DNA of 64,000 nt from NCBI RefSeq assembly GCF_000003815.2, contig NC_049990.1:6882877-6946876 (forward strand), read 5' to 3'. The DNA comes from Branchiostoma floridae. Lineage: Eukaryota > Chordata > Leptocardii > Amphioxiformes > Branchiostomatidae. A model generated the notes under the pieces. It was given only the letters and a program-made list of their open reading frames with translations, was not told where the DNA came from and made no database searches. Positions 4,961 to 64,000 of the stretch are shown in pieces; positions within the stretch are counted from its first letter, which is position 1, and each line of letters opens with the position of its first letter. Both the position numbers and the translations under genes were made by a program.

Positions 4961-7900
4961 ATGTCTCAGGAATCACAGATTCGTCAGAACTACCACCCAG
5001 AGACGGAAGCTGCTGTCAACAAACAGGTAAAACGTTTAGATGGTGACATTATTTGCAGCCTTTGTTATTCTGAAAATTATGATGCACACGAGATACCTGC
5101 CCAGCTGGTATGGTTCCCAAGGCTGGAGTCATCATGGTGGTATGTGGCCCAGTTTAAAAAGTCAATTTTCTGTAATGTTTGTATTTTTGTCCTGTATTAA
5201 ATGCTATGAACAAGGAGGTTAAAAAAAAAACTATGAAGTATTAAAAGTATGTAAATTGAGATGGAGATTGAGTAAAGCTATAAAACATGGTTGGATTTCT
5301 GCTGGAGGAAGAAAAAGTGTCATGAGTGATCTCAAGGACGTTATATAAGTCTTGTGACAGGAGGGTGACATCACACTCACAGGCAGCGACTGCGTGGCGT
5401 AATCTGCAGCAAGTTTGACTCACTCTAGTCAGGTCCAGAAGGTCCTGAGTTCGAACCCCGCCGTGTCACCGATCTTGTGCACTTGGGAAAGGCACTTTAC
5501 ACGACTTTCCTCACTTCACTCAAGTGAAAAATGAGTATACATGTAGACTACAAAGGTCTTCAGCAAGTTGAAGTTGGTAGCCGCAAAACGAAAGAAGAAG
5601 AAGAAGAAGCGAATCCTAATTCACTCATCAAAAGACTCATCTCGGGTATCGTCAGGTACTATAGATAGGGAGGAGTGGGCCACTGGTACAAAAACTGTTA
5701 GCGAAGGAAGGAGTTGTGTTTGCACAGCGAATGGGCTGTGCGCAGCAAAGGGAGGGGCTGTGTGTGCACCACAAAGGTTCGTGAGGAGCTGTGTGTGCGC
5801 AGCGAATGAGCCGTGTGTGTGCAGCGAAGGGAATGTTTTCTCGCAGTGATAGAGCTGTTTGTCCTTAGCATAAGAATTTAGATAGTGGAGATGGATCGGA
5901 CACACCTTTAGAAAACCACCATCTTTCATCACAAGGGCAGGGTAGAGTGGAACCCCCAAGCCAGAAGAAGACCAAGGCTGTCATGGAGGAGAGATACCAT
6001 ATTAAGAAGGACCTAGAGCACAGAAACACCTTATGGCACGAGGCAAAGAAGATTGCTGGAGACAGAAGGATGTGGAGGCTGTAACTGGCCCCTCCCCTCT
6101 AGGAGGCTTGCGGATGTTGGGTGGGCTGCTATAAGTGAGATTTAATCCCAAAGGAGCAAAGAAGATTAAGACATTCAGAGGAGCCCTTGAAAACACTATT
6201 TTTTACATGTAGTGGTCATAGGGAAGCCATGAAAATTGTGAGAGATGACAGTAACATGATACCCTTCTTTTCTTTATGTTTGCAGGCTAACAAGGAGCAT
6301 GCAGCATCCTACACCTACACCTCTCTGAACATCTACTTTGACAGGGACGACGTGGCCTTACCAGGCCTGCAGAAGTTCTTCAAAGGACTGTGTGATCAGA
6401 AGAGAGAATTTGCTAAGAAGGTAGGCTGGCAGAATGGCTATGTCTTATGTTACAATTATGCATATTAAACTTAAACACCATACACTCGCTCACTCACAAA
6501 CGCAGGATGTCATTAACTCATTCATTCATTCATTAACGTCTGATTGCTCAATAACAATGACACAAACCAAAATTAAAGTTTACAAATGACCCAAAGTACT
6601 AGTAGTGATATCACATCTGCTTTTTGCTTCAAATTCAATACACACCAAATCATTCTTGGGTGAAGGAGACTTTGAATGTGGCACTTTTGAGAGTGGCATA
6701 GGAGATTAGCATTATCATCATCATCATCATTTGTAGGACAGAAAGTATGAGAATAAGCTAGTTCATGGTTTGAAGTGCACATGTGCAGTGTGGTGCATGT
6801 CAAAGGTGAAGGTCCATGGCCATTCTTTATCAAAGTTTACGTCTTGTCAGGGGCCTTGAACTTCCGTGTCCACAATGCATCATATTACACATACACATTG
6901 CTCATTCTATGCTTGTTTGTGCATTATTATCTCCCCGAGTAAAGAGGCACAAAGGCTAAGTAAACAATGGTAGCAGAGGGTGCAGCTCTGGACCTCTAGT
7001 ATTGTATGTATGGACTTCTGGTATCATTGAGAAGGGATTTCCTCCAAGTTTTTTGCCGCTTTTCTGTTAGAGTAGATTTTGCACCATTGTCAGTAGACAT
7101 GCACAGCCAGAGGGACAGTGCACACTAATTATAAGAGTCTAGATGTAATACTATATGAGCCTCTACATGTAGAGATAATAAATACACACGCCTTTCTATG
7201 TGTGTGTCCGTGTGTTTACTTCCCTCGGTAAGGAGGTATAGAGGCCATATAACATTTGCTTCCCTGCAGTGGCACCTGCACCAGACAGAGCGGGGAGGGC
7301 GCGTGGTCCTGATGGATGTACCCAACCCTCGCAGGACTCGTGGGGCAGTTTATAACACAGTTTTTTATGTTAAAATACTTTGGTTTTCCCCCATGTGTTA
7401 TAGTGGCACCAGCACTAGACTGAGCAGGGAGGGCGCGTGGTCCTGATGGACGTACCCAACCCCCCGCAGGACTCGTGGGGAAGCTTCTGTTTCTTCTGTT
7501 CAAATACATTTTAACTTTTTACGGTTTCCCCCTGCTGTGTGTTTAAGTGGCACCAGCACCAGACTGAGCGGGGAGGGCGCGTGGTCCTGATGGACGTCCC
7601 GAAGCCCCCGCAGGACTCGTGGGGCAGTCCACAGGACGCGCTGGAGACGGCTCTGTCGCTGGAGAAGGAGCTGAACCAGAGCATGCTGGCCGTGTACGAG
7701 CTGGCACACAAACATGACGACGAACATACCTCAGACTTCATCGAGGGTAAGTTGGCCAGGGATGGACAAGTTTTCTAAAATTCACATAAAAAATGTACTT
7801 GCCCAAACCAACTTTTCATTTGCCCAAAATTCAAATGTCACTTTTTGACTTCCAGCAATGAAATTCTTATTATTGCCTCTATTTTTCTCTGTTGACCATC

Positions 7901-16900: not shown

Positions 16901-19900
16901 CTGGACCTCCATGTTGGATCCATCCATACTACAATACCGACCTCAGTTTATTGAGCAGTTACTCAAGCAACTGGATATTATTTTGGAAATAGTCAGACGT
17001 TTCAGACAGGCGTCCGGTGTCTTTCATCAGTGACACTGGAGAAATCTTGTTGGAGATATCCTAGCTGTAAATGGATATGCAAAAAAGAACTAGATGGAGA
17101 ACAATTGTATCTTGTGAACTATGAATCAATATGCAAAAGGAGAGGGAGACAAGTTTTTAGTAGTCCAAAGGAAACAATGGTTAGACAAGTTAAGACTGTG
17201 TTGATGCACTGGATGATTGTCTGAAACGTCTGACCATTTCCAAAATCATATCCAGTTGCTTGGGTAACTGCTTTTTAGCATACAATGCCTACCTTCTCAT
17301 TAACCACCCTCGGTGTTGTCAGCTTGTTGATCTTGGTGTCTCCCAGCATCAGTTTTTCTGCATCACACTTCAGGAGATCTCCGTTCTCCAGACAAATAAC
17401 CAGGTCACTCTGTAGAAATGGGACAATGTTTCATCACATTTTTCTTGCTCACACAAGCCCAAACAATCTGTAAAATGTATTCATGTGTGAGTCACAAAAC
17501 CAGCCTACCACTGCCTGTGATGCTAATAAATGAAATAAAATATTTTTAGATTTGTGAATCTCTTGCTACTTCTGTCTAATGCAAAGAATCTGACATTGTC
17601 TACAATGTTTTGTTCACTCATCAGTTGCAGCTTCTACTAGAAAAGGGGTATTACCTGCATCTGTATCCATATAGCCAGTATAACAGCTCTTTAGCGTAAC
17701 ACATCTGTGCATCTATTATTGTTTAAAGCTTTCTATCTAGGGAGAATTCCCCAACTGTACCTGTGATCCAAAAAGAGTTGTAGACGGATGAAAGGCCGCC
17801 GCCGTGGGAGCAAACCTTCCTGTCTGGACCTGGTTCTCGAAGAACGGCCCCTCCGTGAAGTTGAAGTCATCTTCATCCACGTCCATGACCAGCAGCTGGG
17901 TCAGCTCCGCCGGGAACACTCCATCGCTGTCCTTCTCAAGGCCGAGAGCTGTGCAACAAAGGTCAAATTTAGCAGCAATCTATAATATACGTAATACTAA
18001 TAAGAGATGTAATAAATCATAAAATTGGATTAAACATAAATGTGGTCCGATCATAAAAGGTTGATGATATTTGTTGTATGATTTGCTGGGAGCACTCTCG
18101 CTGTCCTTCTCAAGGCCAAGTGCTGTGCAACAAAGGTCAAATTTGGCAGCAAAGAATGCTCTGCAGAAATCAAAGATAAAATACATGTACTGTGAATAAG
18201 GAGTTGCTGGTGTGTTATGCTGAAGGGCGGTTATAATGGCTAATAGTATATAAATACAGATACAGAATGTATTATAGAATTGCATTAAAAGGAAATTTGC
18301 GATGATTTCCATGTGATCCTATGAAAGTTGAAGATGTTTGTTTTACCTTTAATGTCTTCTTTGTGCACCCCTCCGGACTGAATGGACCAGACCAGTAAGA
18401 CACCCTGTAATGAAGAAAGGAAGATTTTTTTGTGCTTTCAAAAAACCTTTTAGTCCAAAACAAAAGATTATCCTTACAAAACAAACAGATGAAGGTGTAC
18501 TGCAAGACACAGACAAGATAATCAATAAGAAAAAAAACTTAGTCCCATCGATTGTGACTTGTTAATTAAGCCAATATTGTTAACTTACTGTCTCGTTGAT
18601 TGTAATTTGTTTGGCCAATATCGTTAACTTACTGTCTCGTTAATTGTGATGATCCTGGTCCCATCCAGACTCCAGCAGATGTACAACACCTCATCGTCTG
18701 ACGTTCCCTCGTTCCTGATTTCCCTGACAGGCCGGGGTGCAGGCTCCATCCACACATCATACACCATGATGTCACCTGGGAGGGGACATCAACACTTTGT
18801 TTTACTCATTCTTCTTTGCAAAGCATCACCTCTAGCCTATATAATATACGGCTAAACGCTTTCTTTAGATAAAAATGTTTCTCTGACTGGCTGACAGCTA
18901 GTTTGAGGCCAAGCACACAAAAGTGGAAACCTCATCAGGCTGCAGGCTAGGATCTGTGTAGGAGAATGGCTTTACTGTGAGTTTAGAGGATACATGTGCT
19001 ATTGATGGTCCAGTGGTTAGGGGCAGTGGTTAGTGTCCTTGGTCAAGACACCTCACAAGACTTTCCTCACTCTACCCAGGTGTGAATGAGTACCTGACTT
19101 TGGATGGAGAGGTATTAAAATGGGAAGGATAGGCTCTGCCTTTCAATACTGTGCCCAAAACACTGTGGGTTAAAAACACAAAGCCCCTACAAGACTATGG
19201 GACCTTAACCCTAAGCTTTTAAGTTACAAAATTGGTTCAAGCCTACTTGCACATTCATGGGCCAATCTTCTATATTATCAAACTGTAGAAACTGTCCCCT
19301 CGTCATAATGTGCGCAGGATAATAGTAATCACTTACATATAGTTACATATAGGTCTATCCTTACCATGTACACTTCCCAAGGCTAGAAGTCTCTGGTCTG
19401 GGGACAGGGCAGCACTGGAGATACCCTGCATCCTTTTACTGTATAGATAAAAATTTAAAAACAAGAAATGTCACATCTTCATCAGAAATTACATAACCTA
19501 TAAACAGACACATGGTTTAAATTTCAAAAAAATACACACAGTCTCCTGAAGAACTAGTAGACTGTTCCATTGACCCCATGACTTCGCTTCCTGTCATTCC
19601 GAGTGATTTTGCAGTGACACCACGTCTTGTATGTATGAAATACATAACACAGACAGACAAACAAACACACCCAAAACAGTGTAACAGTGAGGTTCAAGGA
19701 CTGCTAAACAGGCTGCGCAAAATGGCTTTAAGCCTTTTGACCAAACAGTTTAGTGTCTGGATTTGTGAGCTAGTGGCCCAGGATCAGCAAGGGTTCGAAT
19801 CCCAGAAGTCAGGATATTTGTATATATTGTTTCTGTCTGTTTCTACTCCTTTCTTACAACAGCACCTCCCATTTCATTGAGGTAATTCTGTATATCAACT

Positions 19901-28523: not shown

Positions 28524-28790
28524 AAACCTGTAAATATTGCCATCAATAGCCACATATACATAATTTCAGACTAAAAACAATGGCTTTTAGTCAGAACATT
28601 AGTAACAAATAAATGAAGGGGTTCATTGCATAAAACGTACCATTCAAAGCATTGTTATTCAAGCCGTATATCTTCACCCCAGAACTTTTGTAAAATTCTA
28701 TTTCTCTTTTTCAGACCTGTTGGTCCAATTTTGTTCTGAAAAAATCCGAGAAGCAACTAATAAATTTGGTGTGGCCTATCTACATCACAA
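28524..28790 (+). repeat. 270-bp direct repeat flanking the receptor gene (left copy)
   Basis: Blocks such as AAACCTGTAAATATT, CAGAACATT, CCTGTTGGTCCAATTTT and ATAAATTTGGTGTGG appear in the same order and orientation at 39165-39430. The left copy ends about 200 bp before the receptor start codon. The right copy is about 0.9 kb after the last receptor exon. It could be a dispersed element or the mark of a segmental duplication. Confidence 0.75.
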
Positions 28791-28989: not shown

Positions 28990-31900
28990 ATGCCGGACTT
29001 GTTGTGCACATGGACAGTACTTGTCGTCGTTTTATTCTTTTGTGAACAGTTGTCAGGTGAGTATCCGCCATCTTTACAAGCGCTTACCGGGTCACTGAAC
29101 ACATGTCGACTAGTGCTGTGTACCTGCGACTGTGTACGTTACCTGTACCTAGCTAGAGATGTCAGACTGTCTAGTTACACTTACAGGTCCGGACCTTAAC
29201 GTATCTTGTACCAGTACATAAATGAGTATAAACTAGTATCGTGCACCTGTACGTGAACAAACATAGTCACTAGTGTCGTGTCACACAGTACCTGTACATA
29301 AACAAACTGGAAACTACAGTATCATGTACCTGTACATGTACAAACTAGAAGCTAGTATCGTGTATCTGTATCAACACTATGATATAATATAACAACACTA
29401 GTGGATACTATTTTCTAGACTAAAAATATAGGTGATCCCCGGCTAATCTCAAAGATTACAATGCAGCACCGAGGATTAGAACAACACCTACTCCTGTGTT
29501 GAGATCGAAATATGTTATGTCTAAGACAAATTAAGACCACAATTTACTACTAAAAAGACACTTTTTACCTACATATGTAATCTACAGATAATTGGCTGGA
29601 ACTAAATCCAAACCGGACCTGTGCCTAATTTTTTGCCTTGCCGCCAGGCAAGGCTTTACGCCAGCTTTTTTCCATGGATCAATGGACGGACCTGTTAACC
29701 TTGCTCTTCCAAAGACCCTTTCAAAGGCCCTTCCAAATCGCCTTTCTCATGGACAAGTTTGACGGCTCAGGCAGACAATGGTACAGCCCTGTTGAATTTT
29801 AAACCGTCCATTTTACGTATTTGTTTCTGTTTGCGGTCGGTTCTAAAAGCATTTAATATTTGGTTACATTGAATAAATGAAGCGTTTGTATGGTAAAATT
29901 CCAAATTCATTTGGAGTGACATAAAATCAAGTGCATTATCTCGCAACAAGAATTGCATTAGCTATTCATAAAGATGAAACAATTTCCAAATCAGGCTAAT
30001 AAATTGTATGTGAATATATAAGTAGCCATGACGTCATCAAAACGTTGGAGAGGCCGTCCGAGACCGCAGCAAAACGCTAACGTGAGTTTAGGAGAGCGCC
30101 AGCTCAAAACGTCACACGAGAAGTCGCAATAGATAATATTTAGGATCATTTTGTTATATCGCTGTGGCTATTGACACACTGAGTGTGCCTATAGCCTAAA
30201 CAGGCTATTGACACACCGAGATTCCAGCCAGCCAATCAGAGCTTGTAACATGCCTTTCCCGACATTATTTTGCCAGGCTCTCGTCTCATTACAAACTTTT
30301 CACATAAGTAACAGTTGTTTAGACATTTTTCGGAGGATTAGACATTAGAATCTTTCAATCTTGGAATGAACGGACGTATTCAAGTTATGCCTTAGATTTG
30401 GATACCTGTTAATACAAGTTGGTAATGTGAATGTTAGCATGGCGTAATGGTTAGCGTGATTAGTCGCCACACTGCCGACCCCGGTTCGAACCCGCCCAGT
30501 GAAAGTTTTTTTTTTTTCAATTGTCCTTTTACCTTTTTATAACATCCATTTGATATAAGAATATTTTCGTCATGCGACCAGAACCATGAAAACCCACCTT
30601 TGGGACTTTTTGGTCTGCATTTTCAAGAGTGCATGTTTAGGTAACAGTTACGTTTATTTTTCTCAGCCGCAGAATCCACCCGCTACGTTCTTATTTTGGA
30701 CGGTACACTTATTATTTCTTTTAAATTGTTACTGTATATCCTTGAAAGAATGTCTAATTATTTCATATTTATTAGTTGTCGAGGGTCAGAAAATGCAAGG
30801 TCATATTTTAAGACACCTACATATACTTGCAACAAAATTAACAGATCAATACAAGGCTTTGGCTACCATAATACGTATTTAGCAGACAAGCAAATTATCC
30901 TTACTGCACGCCAAGGCACAGCATTTTGCCTTGCCGGGCTTGAAGTGCCGACCTACCTTTTCCTGACGATATTCCTACCACGCGGCAAGGCACAGCTTTT
31001 TTAAAAAGATTTCTTGTTTAGGTACATGTACATAAGGTACTAATGTCGACAGGTATAGGTGGGCGTTGTCACCGTTTAATCAAGGAGGTTTCATCTCCTT
31101 GGTTTAACTTAAGAATTTCTTTATGTTTGCGTGAATGAAATCCACGACATCGACACTCCCAATGAAGTTTTAACTGACGCTTGATACTCTCAAAGCTTGG
31201 TCATGGATCATGGGGTATACGTAGTCAAGGTTCCCTGATCTGAAGCGAAATAACGTCCAAACATGATCGAACAACATATTCTATTTGTTATGTGTTTTGC
31301 CTCAAAACAAAACACCATTTGTTGGCTGAGGAGGGGAGGGTGGGGCAAACTAGACACACCGAACATACAGACTCTCACTTTGTAGGCTTTGACTTCTTGA
31401 TTTCTATTGATATAATGAGTAAATACCATTCCATGTATTCCTCACACAGCAATTGAAAGTCGAGGGTACGTGAGCCTGGGCTGTTGGAAGGACAACAGTG
31501 ACCGCGCCATTCCCATACTCGAGGGCACCGACCCGCGACTGGACGGCTATTACCGTGAACGCAACAATGCCACTGAGAAGTGTTTCCAGGTAGCACTCTC
31601 CCGCAATTTCCCCGTGTTTTCTGTTCAACATGGCGGGCAGTGTTTCGGGTCTGCCGATGGGCTGAACACTTACAACAAGTATGGACCATCCTCGGATTGC
31701 GGGGGAGACGGCGAAGGTGGGGTTTGGGCAAACGAAGTCTACCAGATTATAGGTATGGCGTTTCTTTTTTTAAAGATTTTATCAAATCTTTATTTCAATA
31801 AACAATACATCAATGCACCAAAAAGCAGTTACTCAAGCACTGTGTCACTGACGAAAGGATAATATCTGAAAAGTCAGACCGTTTCCAAAATCTTTTTGGC

Positions 31901-34900
31901 GTACATGTATCTTATTACCTGGATGTCTAACCTTCATCGAAATGCATCAATACATACAACAAACAAGTGGTATATAAAAAAGATACTTAGTAGTAGCACA
32001 ATGGGTAGATGAGCTAAGAAGAAGTTTGCGTAAAATTTAACTTCCCTCGCGAAGCTTCTGAATAGTGTGTCCTTACTGCTGCCTAACCACGTAGTAAAGA
32101 TTACATGTTTAGCTATGGAGACCAATAGATTGATTACCATGTAAATGTGTGGCATATGTTATGATGAAGATGTCAATTTCAATTTCTACCAAACAAGCAA
32201 ACTGGCAGGAAAATGCAAGACGACGTAAAAAAATGATCACGAATTGCGTTGACTTTACAAGCAGAGATCAACTGTAAATAATTCTATCAATTCTAAAATC
32301 CAATGTTCAGACAACACATGTACAAAAAGTTGGTACATCGACATCCTCCTACGCACGGTCCCCAATAGGCGGTTAGCTAGCGCCATTTGGGACCGTGCGT
32401 AGGAGGATGGTACATCGATCACATCTCTTTATCAATTACATTGCTTTGCATACAATGTACTTTGGAAAGCTTTATGTTTTGGACTAAACGCCGTCATGAT
32501 TTGTTTTAAAGTATGCGACAATGATAACATATTTTTAAGCATGTTTAGATATGGTTTAAACAACACTTTTTTCCTCCAACAATTTTTTTTCAGGAGGATA
32601 TAGAAGCCTGGGTTGCTGGGAGGACAATGCTGACCGGGCCATCGCGACACTAGAGGGGACAGATCCACGTCTTGATGGCGACTATGAGGAACGAAGCGAC
32701 GCTATTGAGAAGTGTTACCAGGTAGCACTTTCTCGTGGCTTCACACTGTTTGCTGTGCAGAATGGCGGCTGGTGTGCCGGATCGGAGAGTGGACGTCAAA
32801 GTTATAATAAGTACGGATATTCCACGGCCTGTGGAGGAGATGGCGAAGGCGGGCCTTGGGCAAATGATGTCTACGAGATACTGGGAGGTAAGTGATATAG
32901 CATTCTACTCAAACCTCGCCTGTGGCTCAAATAATGGGTTCATACAATGTACAAGACACTTTTATTTCGGGAAGCTCTGCTAAACGGGGCTGAGGTTTCC
33001 GCCGCGTTGTGCAAAGGCATATATAGCTGTCAGTCAATCAAAAGCATTCCTATAGGAGTTATTTTGGTGACAACAGATCAGTCTAGTTTCCATTATATTA
33101 TTTTGACCACAGTGGCGGCTGCGTGGGCATCAAAGACCATGATGGTAACCTCGACAAACTCTCGTGTTGCAAATGTATTGAACTCCTTGGCCGGCTAACA
33201 CCTCTAGAAAATCCAACCTATTTAATTGGTCAATTGAATCTTGTATGATTCCACCAGCCGATTGAGAGACTAGACCAGTACGTTCTGGTGCACACGTGTG
33301 ATTATGGGCTATCATTTCATCGGAACGTTACTCATGATAACTATAAAAGAGTCGGTTGTGATTCAACTTGGCGACTAATATTTGCCTATAACTTGACAGC
33401 GTGCCTGAACAGAAGCACAGACGACCAGTACGGGTACAGATGGAACCTGACTGCCATCAGAGACTCGTCGCTATTTACTTTTGAAGTCCGAGCGAACAAC
33501 GACGTACACGTGGCTCTGTCGTCACAGAATTACGACCTCGATGACATGTACGAAATCGTCATTGGTGGATGGAACAACACAAGCTCTGTCATCCGCCGCA
33601 GCAAAGGTGGAACCGACCAGACTGGAAGTCCAACGCCAGGTAGGACTTTTTATGAACATGTGTGGTAGTTGCTAGTTAGCCAGCGAAAGGATATGTCACC
33701 CCGTAAGGGGCGCTATAACCCCGTCGTGTGTTAGCACGTCAACCGATGATGAGCTGCTAAGCCAACTATGGAAGTAGATCAGAGTATATATGCCAACTTC
33801 TGATAAATTACAGTGTACATTGTGTAACAAAGAATGCCATTCTGTGTTAATGTGATGACATTATTAGGATGCAATCTTTTTGATTCAACACCGGAAAACG
33901 ACCAACCTACCTACTTTATGCCGGGGGTAGTTACCAACTTCGTCGTACCTAGTCACGAAGGTCGTAACGTTAACCGAATAAATCTTCTGACAAATGACTC
34001 AAAATAACTTCTGATCAGAACGAAGTCCGTCCTGTGTATGCTTTGACACGACTAGGATTCAAATTGAACAACGGAAAATGATAGTCTCCTTCACTGGCGT
34101 CTCTAGGGCCTTGGCGAGAGTTTTTTTGGGGGGGGGGGGTGGACGATGATTCGCGATTTTTATCCGACAGGAAAGAAAAATATGCCGGGAAAGGAAAAAT
34201 GCCGGGAGAGGAATATATACCGGGGGCTTGTACCGGCCTTAGCAAAAATCGCCAATCGACAAAAAAGATCGTCAAGGCCCTAGAGATCCCTAGAGACGCC
34301 GGGAAGGAGGCTAGGAAAATGACCAAACCTGCCCGAAGTCGGGTTCGGTACCATGTAGCCTCTATCAGGCTTCGTGGATCGGTGGTCTAATTGTAGAAAA
34401 TGGACAAATAGAGTCAATAGTATGCTAGGGGAGTCAGCCGGCCAGAAAAAAAAAAACTTGGCCGGCCGACTCCCCTAGCGTACTATAGACTCTATTTGTC
34501 CAATTTCTACCGATCCACGTAGCCTGGTAGAGGCTAACTCACATGCGCTAGAGACACGAGGTCGTAAGGTCACGTGACCGACGGGAGGGGCTATTCATTC
34601 TGAAGAAGGCTAGTTGCTCGGCCGAAAGCAGAGTCCTGAAAGACGATACAACGCTTTTTTGTGTGTGTGTTAAAGAAAAGTTTCGATCATATCTTTTAAA
34701 GATTGGTACCATGCAAAAAAGTGCTCCTTCATAATTCGAAACGTTTGATACCTGTGCAACTATTACTAGCAGAATACAATGACAAGTCTCATGTTGTTTA
34801 ATACCTTCAGGCATTCTATCGTCAGCGGAGTCTAGAGGTTTTTGGATATCCTGGACCATGGACGGCACCATTAGTGTTGGAAAGCAAGGGGAGTCGCAAC

Positions 34901-36442
34901 ATTTCATGCAGTGGACGGACCCTGAGCCGCTCCAAGTGGTCTACGCAGGGTACACTACCGGGTGGGGAAGCACTGGGGAGTGGAGGTTCTGTCCGGTGCT
35001 TATAGGTAAGATTACAACCAGTTGAAAAGTTAGCCTCCAAAGAAGGCTCTCTGGGCCCCTTTTCCGTATTTGTTTGGCTCATGATATTACACTTTTGTTG
35101 CTGGCCCTTTCTTTTTGCACTGGGTCACTTCTACTGCCGGCCCGACACTGTGTGCCGGCCCATAGAAGCGACCCAGCTGAAAGTACAAGCAAACCAGTAC
35201 AAAAAGAAAATGCCATCAAAAGTGTATTATGAGCCAAAAGACGGAAAAGAGCCATCTATGGAGGCTATTGAAAAGTTAAAGGCCTTTCTCTTGGTGTGTA
35301 GGGCGAGGCCCATCTCCCTCTCTGTTGCCCCTGGGCCACACATTTTGCGAGTAATCTCACAGATCTATTGTTGCCTGTTGGCAAGGCAGTATGCATGTAT
35401 CCAAAGGGCCAACCAGTATCCATCAGGCCACCAGAGCCGGTAGAATACTGGTTGGCCCTTTGGATACTGTCTGTCTGTCCCCTTCCTATGGGTTCATTTC
35501 TTCATTAGTTGCTTTTGCATGTTGGAAGCTTGGAGTTAAAAACATTGGCCATTTACTGTAATGTAAGCAATATGTAAGAACACAGTGGACTACTACTAAG
35601 CAAGATGTGCTGGTTTATATAAGCCGGATCACAGTTACTAGTACACTGCACATGGACATTAAGTTGCATTGTGGGTAATATGCGACAGTTGAAGGTCCAT
35701 GAGGTTTGAGCATACATGTACATGTATACCAAACCAAGGAGCTTGATCAAACATGAGCTAGACAAAGTCTCTGTGGCCGAATGGTAATGCAACCCAGCTG
35801 CTTGGCCTCATTTCTCAGATTGGGTACCTTGACTGCCTGCAATGATACACCAAGGTGAAAAATAGCTGTTAACAAGAGCCTTTGACATATTACTGGCAAT
35901 GCATCTTGCTGTGCATGCGCAGTCTAAACCATGTACAAGCCTATAGCTAAGCTCTGCAGAGCTCTGAAGGGCATGCGGATGTGACATAGAATATCATTGT
36001 TATTTCAGATGGAAGAACAGAGCCCCAGCCATCATCCTCTGGAGGATTTAATGGTTTTCATGTATTCACCATATTTGTTGGAATCATTGCGGCTTTTGTT
36101 CTATTTCAACATGGAAAACATTGGCTGCAAAACAATAATTGCAATTGCCCAATGGCCCGGGCTCTACGCTGCAGACGGCGTCCTGAACAGAACCAACAGA
36201 ACACAAACGTCCACTCTATCTCTGTCAGTCTACCAGACTCACGTGCAGAGATGGATAGCCATATATCCATTGGTGTAGACAATGCAAGCGCAGAGTACGA
36301 TGACCCACCGTCTTACCCGGAAGTTGCAACGTCAGTGGTCCAAGTAGAGCCTGCCTCCTCAGAGGACCCTCCTTCTTATGCACATGTTTCTTCAGAGGAC
36401 CCACCCCCTCCTTCATATGATGATGCCTTGAACATGACTTAA
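28990..36442 (+). CDS. Type I receptor: two GCWxD domains, FAMeT domain, TM, PPxY tail (last exon 6a)
   Basis: Exons: 28990-29056, 31450-31752, 32594-32887, 33400-33639, 34811-35005 and last exon 36009-36442, all phase 1, giving 510 residues. Exon 1 is a signal peptide (CTWTVLVVVLFFCEQLS). Exons 2 and 3 each encode a WSC-like cysteine-rich unit with four cysteines: GCWKD/GCWED, EKCxQVALSR, GGxC, and DCGGDGEGG/ACGGDGEGG. Exons 4 and 5 encode a farnesoic acid O-methyltransferase-like domain (VRANNDVHVALSSQN, MYEIVIGGWNNTSSVIRRSK, GFWISW, GYTTGWGSTGEW). This domain type is common as an extracellular, probably ligand-binding module. The last exon supplies one membrane helix and a cytoplasmic tail with three PPSY motifs. 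The family name of the whole protein is not known to me. Ligand binding and signalling are inferred. Confidence 0.88.
29057..31449. other. Intron 1 of the receptor gene
   Basis: The intron is about 2.4 kb. It contains TACATGTA-type repeats near 29180-29390, a short direct duplication of GGCTATTGACACAC (about 30166 and 30203), a tRNA-like sequence at 30432-30515 and CCTTGCCGC/GCGGCAAGG motifs around 29638 and 30982. No coding exon is evident. Confidence 0.5.
30432..30515 (+). pseudogene. tRNA-like sequence (pseudo-tRNA or SINE head)
   Basis: An A-box-like TGGCGTAATGGTTAGCG and a strong B box GGTTCGAACCC have near-normal spacing. A run of more than ten thymines follows. The T stem is only partly paired and no acceptor stem closes, so it is not a functional tRNA as read. 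Confidence 0.45.
31815..31925. mobile_element. Foldback MITE fragment, AGCAGTTACTCAAGC family
   Basis: Contains AAAAAGCAGTTACTCAAGCA, TGTGTCACTGACGAAAG, GTCAGACCGTTTCCAAAAT and TTATTACCTGGATGTCTAAC, in the order seen in the full copy at 16955-17275. It is in intron 2 of the receptor gene. Confidence 0.6.
32342..32409. mobile_element. Tiny foldback element with 9-bp target duplication
   Basis: A 68-bp element is made of 21-bp perfect inverted arms, CATCCTCCTACGCACGGTCCC and its complement, around a 26-bp centre. It is flanked by the direct repeat GTACATCGA (32333-32341 and 32410-32418). Nine-base duplications are typical of Mutator-like transposition. Confidence 0.85.
34096..34300. mobile_element. 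Inverted-repeat MITE, GGCGTCTCTAGGGCCTTG ends
   Basis: The left end GGCGTCTCTAGGGCCTTG is matched by the complement CAAGGCCCTAGAG and CCTAGAGACGCC at the right. The interior has repeated GCCGGGA motifs. The poly-G run lies inside it. Confidence 0.7.
34355..34536. mobile_element. Large foldback (arms about 85 bp)
   Basis: The left arm contains GACAAATAGAGTC and CTAGGGGAGTC. The right arm contains their complements GACTCCCCTAG and GACTCTATTTGTC. The outer ends are TAGCCTCTATCAGGC and GCCTGGTAGAGGCTA. A short A-rich centre separates the arms. It is palindromic and non-coding. Confidence 0.85.
35006..36008. other. Intron 5 of the receptor gene
   Basis: About 1 kb with no supported exon. An ORF-like stretch at 35081-35443 shows no recognisable protein feature. 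A perfect 23-bp hairpin (ATACTGGTTGGCCCTTTGGA and its complement) lies at 35396-35466. Confidence 0.5.
36009..36442 (+). CDS. Alternative last exon 6a: TM plus PPxY tail
   Basis: The acceptor TTATTTCAG joins in phase 1 to exon 5. The exon encodes a short linker (DGRTEPQPSSSGG), a hydrophobic helix (FHVFTIFVGIIAAFVLF), a basic and Cys-rich juxtamembrane stretch (CNCP, then LRCRRR) and a tail with PPSYPEV, PPSYAHV and PPPPSYDDA. The tail ends LNMT. PPxY motifs bind WW domains such as those of NEDD4-type ubiquitin ligases. YPEV and YAHV also fit YxxPhi endocytic signals. Compared with 6b and 6c it lacks the GDLF segment. An AATAAA signal lies about 150 bp after the stop. Confidence 0.88.
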
Positions 36443-36820
36443 AAAACGGAGTTTGAAGATGTCATAGTTAATTTATCGTACGTGTTATCTGATTATAGTA
36501 CATGAATTATGCAAATAAGGTTTTGACTAACATGACAGTACGTGGCCATTGATCATGTCATTCAAAGCTAAATGTGACTAAGATATGAAACAATAAAGAC
36601 TTGTATCTCTGAAAACACAACAACCAAGAGCAATTCTCACCCTTGAATTAGTGGCCTCTTCCTTTGACCCCATGACCTGGAGTGTCTGTCAGCTGTCTGC
36701 CAACAGGTTGATTAATGACAGTCTTGAACTTTACTTCCTGAAATTTGGCCCTTTACTCTGTTTCACTCAGTTTTTCCATGTGCAATGCGGATGTGACAGA
36801 GAATGTCATTGTTATTTCAG

Positions 36821-37293
36821 ATCGAAGAACAGAGCCCCAGCCATCATCCTCTGGAGGACTAAACGGTTTTCATGTAGCCGGCATATTCATTGGACTCTTT
36901 ATGGCTTTGGTTCTATTGCAACATGGAAGACATAGGTTGCAAAACAATAATTGCAATTGCCCGATCGCCAGGGCCCTACCCTGCAGACAGCATCGCGAAC
37001 AGAACCAACAAGACACAGACGTTCACTCTACCACTTTGTCTTTGAGTCTACAAGACATTGACACTGACAATGTACGTGCAGACGGTGACACGGAAAGCCA
37101 AATATCCATTGGTGACTTATTTGATGTAGACAATGCAAGCGCAGAGTACGATGACCCACCGTCTTACCCGGAAGTCGCAACGTCAGTGGTCCAAATAGAG
37201 CCTGCCTCCTCAGAGGACCCTCCTTCTTATGCACACGTTTCTTCAGTGGACCCACCTCCACCTTCATATGATGATGCCTTGAACATGACTTAA
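36821..37293 (+). CDS. Alternative last exon 6b: TM plus PPxY tail
   Basis: This is a tandem duplicate of 6a with the same TTATTTCAG acceptor and phase. Joined to exons 1-5 it gives 523 residues. The helix differs (FHVAGIFIGLFMALVLL). The CNCP juxtamembrane cysteines are kept, and the tail is longer, with DTESQISIGDLFDV before the three PPSY motifs. At the position of the 6a AATAAA the sequence reads GAAATATAC, so its own polyadenylation signal appears lost. The duplication unit includes about 50 bp of upstream intron and several hundred bp of 3' flank. Confidence 0.85.
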
Positions 37294-37802
37294 AAAACGG
37301 AGTTTGAAGATGTCATATTTAATTTATTGTACGTGTTATCTGATTATAGTTCATGAATTATGCAAATTCCAACATTACAGTACATGGCCATTGATCCCTT
37401 TTTTGTCATTCCAAGCTAAATGTAACTAACACATGAAATATACATGTATTATAGTGTATAACAGACTATCAAGAGCAGTACCCACCCATGAACTAGTAGG
37501 CTCTTCCTTTGACCCCATGACCTGGAGTGTCTGTCAGCTGTCATCCAAGGTTGATGTATTAGGTCTAACAACTCTTGAACTTTACTTCTGTTTTGAGATG
37601 TGCCTATACATAGCATCTAAAAAAGGGAAATAGGAAACACAAACAGACAAATGATCACACTGAAAACAAAATCTCTACCTGTACAGGTGATGGTGATGGT
37701 TTCTTCTATGATGTGCTGATGATCTTCCACTGGCTTGTTAGGATACAGCTTGGATGTGAGTGATCTAGATGATGTGACCAAGAGTGTTGTTGTTCTTTTC
37801 AG

Positions 37803-38239
37803 AAGAAAGAAGAGAAACCAATCAACCATCGTCAGAAGGACTGGCTTGGTACCATATAGTAGGCATTGTCTTTGGGTGCTTTGTGTTTCTGACCATAGTT
37901 GGAAATCGGAACAGAAACGCTGGGAGGCCCCCATCTGCCAGAGCGCCTCCCGCCCCAGCGACCCCACAGAACCAACGGAACACAAACGTTCCCTCTACCT
38001 CAGTCAGTCTACCAGACTTACGCTCAGTCAGTGACACGGATAGCCAAATATCCATTGGTGATTTATTTGGGGTAGACAATGCAGGCGCAGAGTACGATGA
38101 CCCACCGTCTTACCCGGAAGTTGCAACGTCAGTGGTCCAAGTAGAGCCTGCCTCCTCAGAGGACCCTCCTTCTTATGCACATGTTTCTTCGGACGACCCA
38201 CCTCCACCTTCATATGAAGATGCCTTGAACATGACATAA
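37803..38239 (+). CDS. Alternative last exon 6c: TM plus PPxY tail, no juxtamembrane cysteines
   Basis: This third copy has acceptor CTTTTCAG in phase 1. Joined to exons 1-5 it gives 511 residues. The N-terminal half is diverged: the linker is EERRETNQPSSEG and the helix WYHIVGIVFGCFVFLTIVG. A Pro/Ala-rich segment (RPPSARAPPAPATPQ) replaces the CNCP region. The tail is almost identical to 6b (ISIGDLFGVDN, three PPSY motifs, ALNMT). Conserved tails with diverged membrane parts suggest selection on the tail or local gene conversion. Confidence 0.85.
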
Positions 38240-39164
38240 GGGTTAAACTATATTCTGTCGCTATCACTGTTGCCAAAACTCACTGGTCCATCTCACGCAA
38301 TCTAACGTATCATCAGGAAAAGACACTTTGATCCAATTCAGTGGTTTGCTGCTAAAAATCTTCTACTGGTTGTTGAGAAATTAAGATGAATGATGAGGGC
38401 AAGAATCAAAGGACTTCTTTTTCGAATCATGCTGCCACAAAATTAGCTAGCTCATGGTTTGAACTTCACATTCGCAGTATTGTAACTGTTAATGATACAT
38501 TTTTGTATTAAGCATCTTAATGTATATTTCTATGCATGCATTTGACCATGCATATATATGTTCTGAATTTTCTTCACTAACGAGTACATTGTATTAAATG
38601 TGACACGTGTATTAAATGTGACACGTGTATTAATTGTGACAAATGGGCAACTACTGTATCTAGTTGTCACTTCGTAATCTATTTTCAATTGGGTAAAACA
38701 TTCTGGTCCTGTTAAAGGAAGTTTACACCTAATCTTCGAAGAGCTGGGAAGTGTATATACATGTACTAACTGTAGTTTTCATTGCTCTAGAGGTCAATTT
38801 ATAAAAACTAACAGATTTAACAAAAATGACACTTTGTTGTGAATTTGATAAAAACTTAGTTTATTCAAGAACACATTAGTTTATTAAGTAACACATTAAT
38901 CTGAAAAAAAAAAAACAATAAGAGAAAACTTGAATGTTGCTGTAATGTACTATCTTTTGTTGGGATACCAATAATTCAAGACTGATTAAAAAACTTTTAT
39001 ATCAAAATTTCAGTTGAATAGATCTGTTTGTATGATACTGTTGAAATGCTATCTTTTGATCTTCTATATTATCAAGTACATCTTTAGGCCACACCAATTT
39101 TATTTGTAGCATCTCCGAAAAAAAATTAAGTCCCCAGAAAAAAATCATACAGTTTTGCTATCGA
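38240..39164. other. 3' flank of the receptor gene
   Basis: No gene is seen. It includes a short tandem repeat with a TATTAAATGTGACACGTG unit (two and a half copies at about 38591-38642) and ATTAAA motifs that could act as polyadenylation signals for exon 6c. Confidence 0.45.
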
Positions 39165-39430
39165 AAACCTGTAAATATTACCATTTAGAACAAAAAAAAA
39201 TAAAATTTCAGCCAAAAAACAATGCCTTTGTTCAGAACATTTGTTACAAATCAAACTGAAGGAATTCATTATATAATACATGCCATTAGACTCCTCAGGC
39301 TATTTGTGTGTTGTTATTTAAGCCAAATATCCTCACCCAAGACCTTTTGAAAGAAAAAAAGAAAAAAAAAATTTAAACCTGTTGGTCCAATTTTTTCTGA
39401 AAAGCAACAAATAAATTTGGTGTGGTCTTT
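39165..39430 (+). repeat. 270-bp direct repeat flanking the receptor gene (right copy)
   Basis: Same-orientation partner of 28524-28790, with AAACCTGTAAATATTACCAT, TTTGTTCAGAACATTTGTT, CCTGTTGGTCCAATTTT and ATAAATTTGGTGTGG in order. A purine insert (GAAAGAAAAAAAG type) is specific to this copy. Confidence 0.75.
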
Positions 39431-63060: not shown

Positions 63061-63067
63061 ACTGAAG

Positions 63068-63809
63068 ATGGCAGGACAGCTTGTATTCCTGGTGATGTGT
63101 TTGTCTCTGGAGACGACGGCATGGGCCCATCGCTTCACCACCCCATCGGACCCCAGCACCCTGCACAACAAAGTCGCCATGTTGGAAAACCACTACGAAG
63201 AGCTGCAGAAGAAATTCCGCATCCAGACCAACGTTTTCGAGGCCCAGAACCACAAACTGAAGAGCCAGCTGCGAAGCCAGGCCGGCAAGATCCGTGACCT
63301 CCAAGACCGGAACGACCGCCTCGAAAAGGAGCAGCAGCAGATGCTCAAGACGTTCTCGGATCTTAGCGCCACGCTCTTCAAGAGCAAGTGGTCGGGGCAG
63401 TCCGCCGTCCAGGAGATCCTGACCACGACCCCTCTGATTCCGAGAGCAAGCGCTAATGGGTGGAGCCTGGACCACATCATCCAGAACCAGACCAGGAAGA
63501 TCGACCAGCTGGAGACAGAGAACAAGATGCTGAGAGACGTGGTGAACAGGTTGCAGGAGAAAGGCAGCAGCATGGAGGCCATGCTCATCGAAAACAGCGC
63601 CCTCATCGCGCAGCTCCACGTTAACGATCGCCCGGGAGTTCAGAAGGACCCGTCCAGGAGAGATGTTTCTATTGGCAGCTTGGGCAAGCTGGTCGCCTCG
63701 CAGAGCGATGAGATCAGGACATTGAGGAGAAGCTTCCACGACGTCAACGAGACGTTGTCGCTGCAAAGACGCCGCCTTACCAGCCTGGGGGACCTCTTCC
63801 AGGGGCAAG
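63068..63809 (+). CDS. Secreted coiled-coil protein, first coding exon (partial gene)
   Basis: The ATG at 63068 has a strong context (A at -3, G at +4). It starts a 247-residue exon ending at the donor CAAG, then GTGAAT, at 63809 (phase 1); the rest lies beyond the window. Residues 1-20 form a signal peptide (QLVFLVMCLSLETTAWA). Heptad-rich segments follow at about residues 25-110 (VAMLENHYEELQKKFRIQ, KIRDLQDRNDRLEKEQQQM) and 140-175 (KIDQLETENKMLRDVVNRL), with more near the end. Likely N-glycosylation sites are NQT and NET. GC content is clearly above that of the flanks. A secreted signal plus a long coiled coil is common at the N-terminus of angiopoietin-like or other fibrinogen-related proteins, but no C-terminal domain is visible to decide this. 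Confidence 0.85.
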
Positions 63810-64000
63810 GTGAATGCTGTTGGTTGATTTTAGATAATGTTATTGATTGATGTTAATTGTCATTTACCATCTGAAACCCAACAAATGATATTCAGGTTCA
63901 CATTTTACGAAGTAATATTGTTAAATGATGTTATTGATTGATGTTAAATGTGTAATTTATTGTATTGTGGTTGTAACTTAGTAGATTATGATTTATTGTA
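63810..64000. other. Start of the next intron
   Basis: AT-rich intron sequence. The phrase ATGTTATTGATTGATGTTAA, or a one-base variant, occurs twice about 90 bp apart. No further exon before the window end. Confidence 0.5.

Follow-up and report, generated by a model that had tools for sequence, protein, structure and literature searches.

We describe here a gene in a 64,000-nucleotide stretch of the genome of the lancelet Branchiostoma floridae (C12:6882877-6946876; below, the window) that ends in three tandemly arranged candidate last exons: 6a, 6b and 6c. Each of these encodes its own membrane helix, which has diverged between the copies, and a cytoplasmic tail with PPxY motifs, which the copies share, and each can be joined to one and the same ectodomain. 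This layout had been proposed in a sequence-only reading of the same DNA and is confirmed by our analysis; the anatomy is real, and neither chance nor an artefact is likely to account for it. We are inclined, with a confidence slightly above even, to interpret the sequence as that of one gene with three alternative last exons, by which a single ectodomain would be coupled to any of three membrane cassettes on a ligase-recruiting sorting tail.

The region in question (34811..38239) begins at exon 5, the last exon of the ectodomain, and ends at the stop codon of 6c. The three copies are:

36009..36442, + strand: last exon 6a, with a helix, CNC cysteines, three PPSY motifs and a stop, and without a GDLF segment
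36821..37293, + strand: last exon 6b, with a helix, CNC cysteines, the clathrin-box-like motif LFDVD, three PPSY motifs and a stop
37803..38239, + strand: last exon 6c, with a helix containing an internal cysteine, the motif LFGVD, three PPSY motifs and a stop, and without CNC

The joins from exon 5 to 6a, 6b and 6c are all in phase 1 and in frame, and on re-derivation give exactly the previously predicted proteins of 510, 523 and 511 residues. The spacers between the copies measure only 378 nucleotides (nt; 6a-6b) and 509 nt (6b-6c). There is one helix per copy (GFHVFTIFVGIIAAFVLFQ in 6a, GFHVAGIFIGLFMALVLLQ in 6b and AWYHIVGIVFGCFVFLTIV in 6c), with hydropathies of 2.07, 2.03 and 2.10, respectively; elsewhere, with the helix and the signal excluded, the maximum is 0.81. 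The three PPSY motifs earlier ascribed to each copy were found in all of them: PPSYPEV and PPSYAHV are invariant, and the third is PPPPSYDDA, or PPPPSYEDA in 6c. Three PPxY motifs arose in none of 20,000 shuffles of any of the tails. A scan of both strands of the 64 kb for open reading frames (ORFs) of at least 40 residues that combine a helix (hydropathy of at least 1.8) with a PY motif recovered 6a, 6b and 6c only. Against Pfam, no family reached its cut-off with the tails, WBP-1 being matched by 6a only (E 0.18).

The membrane-near parts differ in two respects, and the alignment bears out the distribution reported for both. Cytoplasmic cysteines number three in 6a, three in 6b and zero in 6c: CNCP is present in 6a and 6b and not in 6c, whose sole cysteine sits within the helix. 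The GDLF segment is present in 6b (GDLFDVD) and 6c (GDLFGVD) and lacking in 6a; both of these segments fit the clathrin-box pattern L[IVLMF].[IVLMF][DE], which has no match in 6a. The tails are also poor in lysine, with 1, 0 and 0 lysines in the 109, 122 and 110 residues of 6a, 6b and 6c (the frame-1 translation of the window has 5.8%). Since 9-38% of drift simulations starting from these tails end without any lysine, we claim no selection for this.

Upstream of the copies we recognize five exons, each with a GT donor and each ending in phase 1, and GT and AG are found at donors and acceptors throughout:

28990..29056, + strand: exon 1, 67 nt, with the start codon and a signal-peptide-like hydrophobic stretch, ending in phase 1
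31450..31752, + strand: exon 2, first WSC-like domain (PF01822, E 9.5e-4, 19.8 bits, below cut-off)
32594..32887, + strand: exon 3, second WSC-like domain (PF01822, E 2.5e-4, 21.7 bits, below cut-off)
33400..33639, + strand: exon 4, first half of Methyltransf_FA (PF12248), profile positions 4-77, 65 bits
34811..35005, + strand: exon 5, second half of Methyltransf_FA, profile positions 78-136, 69.8 bits, with the donor common to 6a, 6b and 6c

The signal-like stretch has a hydropathy of 1.91 over 19 residues. Exons 4 and 5 jointly encode one Methyltransf_FA domain, both halves scoring well above the Pfam cut-off of 24.2 bits; the family name (farnesoic acid methyltransferase) says little about the function of this gene. 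Exons 2 and 3 fall short of the WSC cut-off of 27.8 bits and, being 69% identical to each other, do not provide independent matches. The earlier description of the ectodomain as lectin-like therefore holds only in part. No further WSC or Methyltransf_FA exon was found in the window by tblastn with the ectodomain. Sequence searches of the PDB returned just two chance-level matches for exon 3 (E 0.22 and 0.28) and zero for exon 4. The LRR receptor of amphioxus that has a WSC domain (PMC8211107) is a different protein.

Across the genome (513,431,437 bases in 431 contigs) the tail is confined to this locus: three places, all of them here, are recovered when the tail of 6a (E limit 0.001) or that of 6c (E limit 1) is used as the query. 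Exon 5, by comparison, has 81 genome matches including its own, and PF12248 has 123 exon-level matches, so the ectodomain module is common. At the 20 best of the 80 other exon-5-like places, the roughly 9.6 kb downstream contain no ORF that combines helix and PY motif, and tblastn with the tails finds nothing there at E 0.5. This screen is blind to longer introns, to tails split between exons and to tails without PPxY; the same ORF scan recovers 6a, 6b and 6c at the locus. Two of the 20 places (C4 and C297) agree in score, identity and matched protein and are perhaps one gene seen twice. Many of the PF12248 matches begin or end near profile position 78, the point at which the domain is split here, and several contain internal stops. 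There were no PF12248 matches in 14 control genomes.

The arrangement at the 3' end has the marks of tandem alternative last exons: homologous copies, each with an acceptor in the same phase and a stop, and no in-phase donor among the three best of any copy. With each of these best donors the exon would finish in phase 2 or 0, not in the phase 1 required for joining to the following copy; given this and the stop in each copy, the copies are best read as terminal, and we rejected internal cassette exons. The acceptors had been called good. All are indeed present, and their quality is relative: on a simple score 6a, 6b and 6c reach 11, 11 and 13, values equalled by 15%, 15% and 5.6% of the AGs in the window, as against 12-14 for exons 2-5 (reached by 2.6-10%). 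Each copy is followed by a potential poly(A) hexamer:

36592..36597, + strand: AATAAA hexamer, 149 nt past the 6a stop
37437..37442, + strand: AATATA hexamer, a weak variant, 143 nt past the 6b stop and a near counterpart of the 6a hexamer in the DNA alignment
38593..38598, + strand: ATTAAA hexamer, 353 nt past the 6c stop

The first two are the only hexamers of the 13 kinds sought that occur before the next copy, and seven follow within 1 kb of 6c, of which the first two are ATTAAA at +353 and +371 (38611). As the density in the window predicts 0.29 AATAAA, 0.14 AATATA and 0.20 ATTAAA per 400 nt, these hexamers are suggestive only. An element present in both spacers (36620-36703 and 37465-37548) was considered as a splicing selector and rejected: it is instead a dispersed repeat with at least 42 genome matches (40 of 143 candidates scored) and a further copy in the window at 19551-19582. 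Intron 5 also contains a hairpin-like palindrome of 71 nt (35397-35467) that matches its own reverse complement at 79%.

Several features support the view, from sequence comparison, that all three copies show signs of constraint. In the pairwise coding alignments 11 of 11 gaps are multiples of three, as against 8 of 23 in the downstream 350 nt; the DNA was aligned without codon guidance and gaps recur between pairs, such that the coding gaps stand for about 5-6 separate events. In simulations of neutral drift over the first 40-45 codons, an open frame with a hydropathy of at least 2.0 is retained in 0.5-1.0% of 3000 runs when the divergence is set to 0.65-0.83, the whole distance separating 6c from 6a and 6b. 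At 0.32, roughly half that distance, the figure is 3.5-4.8%. The nonsynonymous divergence (dN) of the membrane half is below the synonymous divergence (dS) for 6b-6c (p 0.025), and the same comparison for the tails gives p values of 0.031 (6a-6b), 0.060 (6a-6c) and 0.10 (6b-6c).

The two halves of the exon have evolved in opposite ways: the tails are alike and the membrane parts divergent. In the membrane half dS is 0.32 (6a-6b), 0.65 (6a-6c) and 0.83 (6b-6c), and in the tail 0.108, 0.107 and 0.121, respectively (Fisher p for the contrast 0.07, 3e-4 and 1.7e-5). Among 79 degenerate codons whose amino acid is identical in all three copies, 6a and 6c share a run of 42 consecutive silent-identical codons, matched by none of 10,000 permutations. 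The similarity between these two copies breaks off at the stop, up to which the tails are 96% identical and beyond which the next 70 nt are 49% identical. Between 6a and 6b both the tails and the first 70 nt of the 3' untranslated region (UTR) are 96% identical, and the 3' region of 6c cannot be aligned with those of 6a and 6b (44-49% identity). The likeness of the tails is best explained by gene conversion, as the simplest account of these comparisons; constraint on the tail at the nucleotide level would be an alternative.

Several known systems share parts of this organization. In Drosophila Dscam two alternative membrane exons direct the protein to dendrites or axons, and the axonal signal was assigned to the region of TM2 close to the membrane, on results that the paper calls unpublished (PMC2566808). 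Exon 17 of Dscam1 (TM1/TM2) thereby resembles the lancelet gene in offering alternative transmembrane exons on a shared ectodomain (PMC2566808, PMC3364881). However, it is internal, two-fold and followed by endodomain exons, whereas the lancelet exon is terminal, three-fold and includes the tail and a stop; the domains are likewise unrelated, Ig and FN in Dscam and WSC-like and Methyltransf_FA here. Tandem alternative terminal parts, one per transcript, are known from the alternative terminal exons of Drosophila pip and the mutually exclusive 3' variable regions of PGRP-LC, for which competing RNA structures are reported (PMC9013439), unlike at the lancelet locus, where we found none. Alternative final exons that yield alternative C termini are described for vertebrate GNAO (exons 7-8) and for the final exon pair of preGNAS, the latter in cephalochordates themselves (PMC5896119). 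At the DNA level the lancelet gene thus has one ectodomain and alternative exons that differ in the helix and the membrane-near segment, as in Dscam, but not an internal exon with common downstream exons, as every copy has its own stop. The variable 3' parts of PGRP-LC are ectodomains, unlike the lancelet copies, which are membrane anchors and tails. GNAO and preGNAS, in turn, encode G protein alpha subunits by exon pairs and, unlike the gene described here, are not known to include a membrane helix.

The tail finds its closest counterparts among Commissureless, PRRG, Shisa, CYYR1 and ENTREP/FAM189A2, all with a single helix and cytoplasmic L/PPxY motifs. Commissureless (Comm) and PRRG4 bind Nedd4, and the third tail motif of the lancelet (PPPPSYDDAL) resembles both GLPSYDEAL, an extended motif essential to Commissureless, and the PRRG4 sequence GLPSYEQAV (PMC5578492). 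ENTREP is a type I membrane protein that has PPxY motifs; it recruits the ligase ITCH to CXCR4, activates ITCH and drives the uptake of CXCR4 (PMC8811627). In the lancelet copies a single helix is likewise followed by cytoplasmic PPxY motifs, and no homology in sequence to the Commissureless/PRRG/Shisa-like families was found, the resemblance being one of motif alone. The Comm, PRRG, Shisa, CYYR1 and ENTREP families are not known to have a WSC or Methyltransf_FA ectodomain. The passages considered from the Comm/PRRG and ENTREP literature report no alternative membrane exon array (PMC5578492, PMC8811627). It had been stated that no described receptor has the layout found here. Its parts are in print, in Dscam, pip, PGRP-LC, Comm, PRRG and ENTREP, and no description of the full layout was found in a limited search of the open-licence literature. 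Each principle has a precedent and the combination appears to be new. The genome annotation may already list isoforms.

Taken with these precedents, the anatomy suggests the following mechanism. The gene would end in three tandemly duplicated alternative last exons, and we infer that 6a, 6b or 6c is chosen in the RNA by splicing from exon 5 together with use of the matching poly(A) site. The ectodomain, with two WSC-like domains and one Methyltransf_FA domain, would thus carry one of three membrane cassettes. By analogy to Commissureless, PRRG and ENTREP, the PPSY tail would recruit NEDD4-family WW-domain ligases in every isoform, and this recruitment may sort the protein, or a cargo bound by it, into endosomes, with the helix and the membrane-near part setting the site and the route of sorting. 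To this 6a and 6b would contribute cytoplasmic cysteines, and 6b and 6c, but not 6a, a clathrin-box-like motif, gene conversion presumably keeping the tails alike as the membrane halves diverge. A more specific version can be offered only tentatively, and we think it rather unlikely to hold in full: a splice switch on a ligase tail kept by conversion would send 6a, by way of its cysteines, to membrane domains, 6c to clathrin-coated pits and 6b to both, and the protein would act as a lysine-poor adaptor that brings about the ubiquitination of its cargo instead of its own, the nearly lysine-free tails being such as would favor an adaptor over a substrate. If the exons are used, they would provide a natural three-way comparison of anchors with the same ectodomain and a nearly identical ligase-recruiting tail, in which the helix, the cysteines and the clathrin-type motif could each be assessed for its own effect on sorting that depends on the ligase; the Dscam-type principle, that a membrane exon sets location, would also be extended to terminal exons and to a chordate.

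A number of observations weigh against this interpretation. At the level of RNA processing, the acceptors of 6a and 6b are middling. Of 9 consensus positions, 6 are matched by the best donors within the copies, 7 by the donor of exon 5 and 6 by that of exon 2; as exon 2 itself makes do with 6, the score alone cannot exclude internal donors. Thirteen kinds of hexamer were searched for, that of 6b is weak, and the nearest two of 6c lie in an 18-nt tandem repeat. No competing RNA structure was found when five elements were paired with intron 5 by RNAduplex in a docking-selector test, each element being compared with 100 single-base shuffles: four of the five gave z values of -0.9 to 0.5, and the fifth, the stretch upstream of 6a (z -4.4), is itself part of intron 5. 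As to the cassettes, the clathrin-box pattern occurs in 1.3-4.1% of shuffled tails, and the cysteines of 6a and 6b lie at least 11 residues beyond the helix, which is rather far for palmitoylation. As to constraint, drift preserves the open frame of a whole exon in 2-20% of 4000 runs per copy, depending on branch length, and in 4-20% at branch lengths of 0.16-0.35, so that an open frame by itself could be luck. For 6a-6b (p 0.20) and 6a-6c (p 0.28) the dN of the membrane half is not clearly lower than its dS, and the case for constraint there is thus one of frame and hydrophobicity. The silent-run test, which bears on conversion, is not significant for 6a-6b (p 0.36) and 6b-6c (p 0.06). Among the precedents, Comm is reported to require Nedd4 binding for its role at the neuromuscular junction but not for the control of Robo at the midline (PMC5578492), and ENTREP is itself ubiquitinated, unlike what a lysine-poor tail would lead one to expect (PMC8811627).

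The survival of an open frame under drift lends some strength to the reading that only one copy is used, probably 6a with its canonical AATAAA, and that 6b and 6c are untranslated duplicates kept open by recent conversion or by chance. 6a comes first and is the sole copy with a canonical hexamer nearby; the tails seem homogenized, which would keep unused copies open as well; and the dN/dS of the membrane halves is 0.56-0.73. However, the membrane halves, which are not homogenized, retain both frame and helix to an extent that drift seldom reproduces, and the coding gaps are all multiples of three. Moreover, the window provides an example of what unused copies may come to look like, in the decayed fragments of a ferritin-like exon at 7268-7628. 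On balance we regard this alternative as unlikely, though a serious one.

Somewhat less likely still is that all three copies are used and that the differences between their cassettes have no function, the array serving only to control expression through a choice of 3' UTR and poly(A) site. The near-identity of the tails, the unalignable 3' region of 6c and the near-neutral evolution of the membrane halves would all be accommodated thereby. In contrast, the retained hydrophobicity and the in-frame gaps suggest that the helix matters, and the differences in cysteines and GDLF do exist, though drift could explain them. That the copies are an assembly artefact of unmerged haplotypes is very improbable: the 96% identity of 6a and 6b, in tails and early 3' UTR alike, would be in keeping with it, but the membrane halves, with a silent divergence of 0.32-0.83, far exceed the allelic variation of lancelets (about 4%), and the flanks of 6c are distinct. 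Finally, that 6b and 6c are parts of other genes further downstream, each with its own ectodomain, a possibility the sequence-only reading itself had raised, is scarcely credible in view of the short spacers and the lack of a further such ectodomain exon in the window (tblastn), even if trans-splicing or an unrelated short first exon would be compatible with the DNA.

Unlike 6a-6c, the repeats in the ferritin-like gene (6139-7778, + strand) have the look of decayed exon fragments. This gene matches PF00210 at 6139-6465 (23.9 bits, cut-off 24.5) and 7515-7775 (45.8 bits); the start of its second exon is present in three tandem copies with a period of 144, of which the first goes out of frame and the second is interrupted by an in-frame stop. 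Elsewhere in the window, an ORF on the - strand (1573-2004) matches the FAM69/PIP49 kinase domain (PF12260, 27.1 bits, cut-off 25.2), and an open frame of 262 amino acids on the + strand (63062-63850) has coiled-coil-type and weak angiopoietin-like matches, all below cut-off. Non-coding DNA on either side of the gene with the three last exons (28524-28778 and 39085-39430) shares two direct similarities (76% over 124 nt and 88% over 33 nt) and an inverted one (85% over 34 nt), perhaps as copies of a mobile element.

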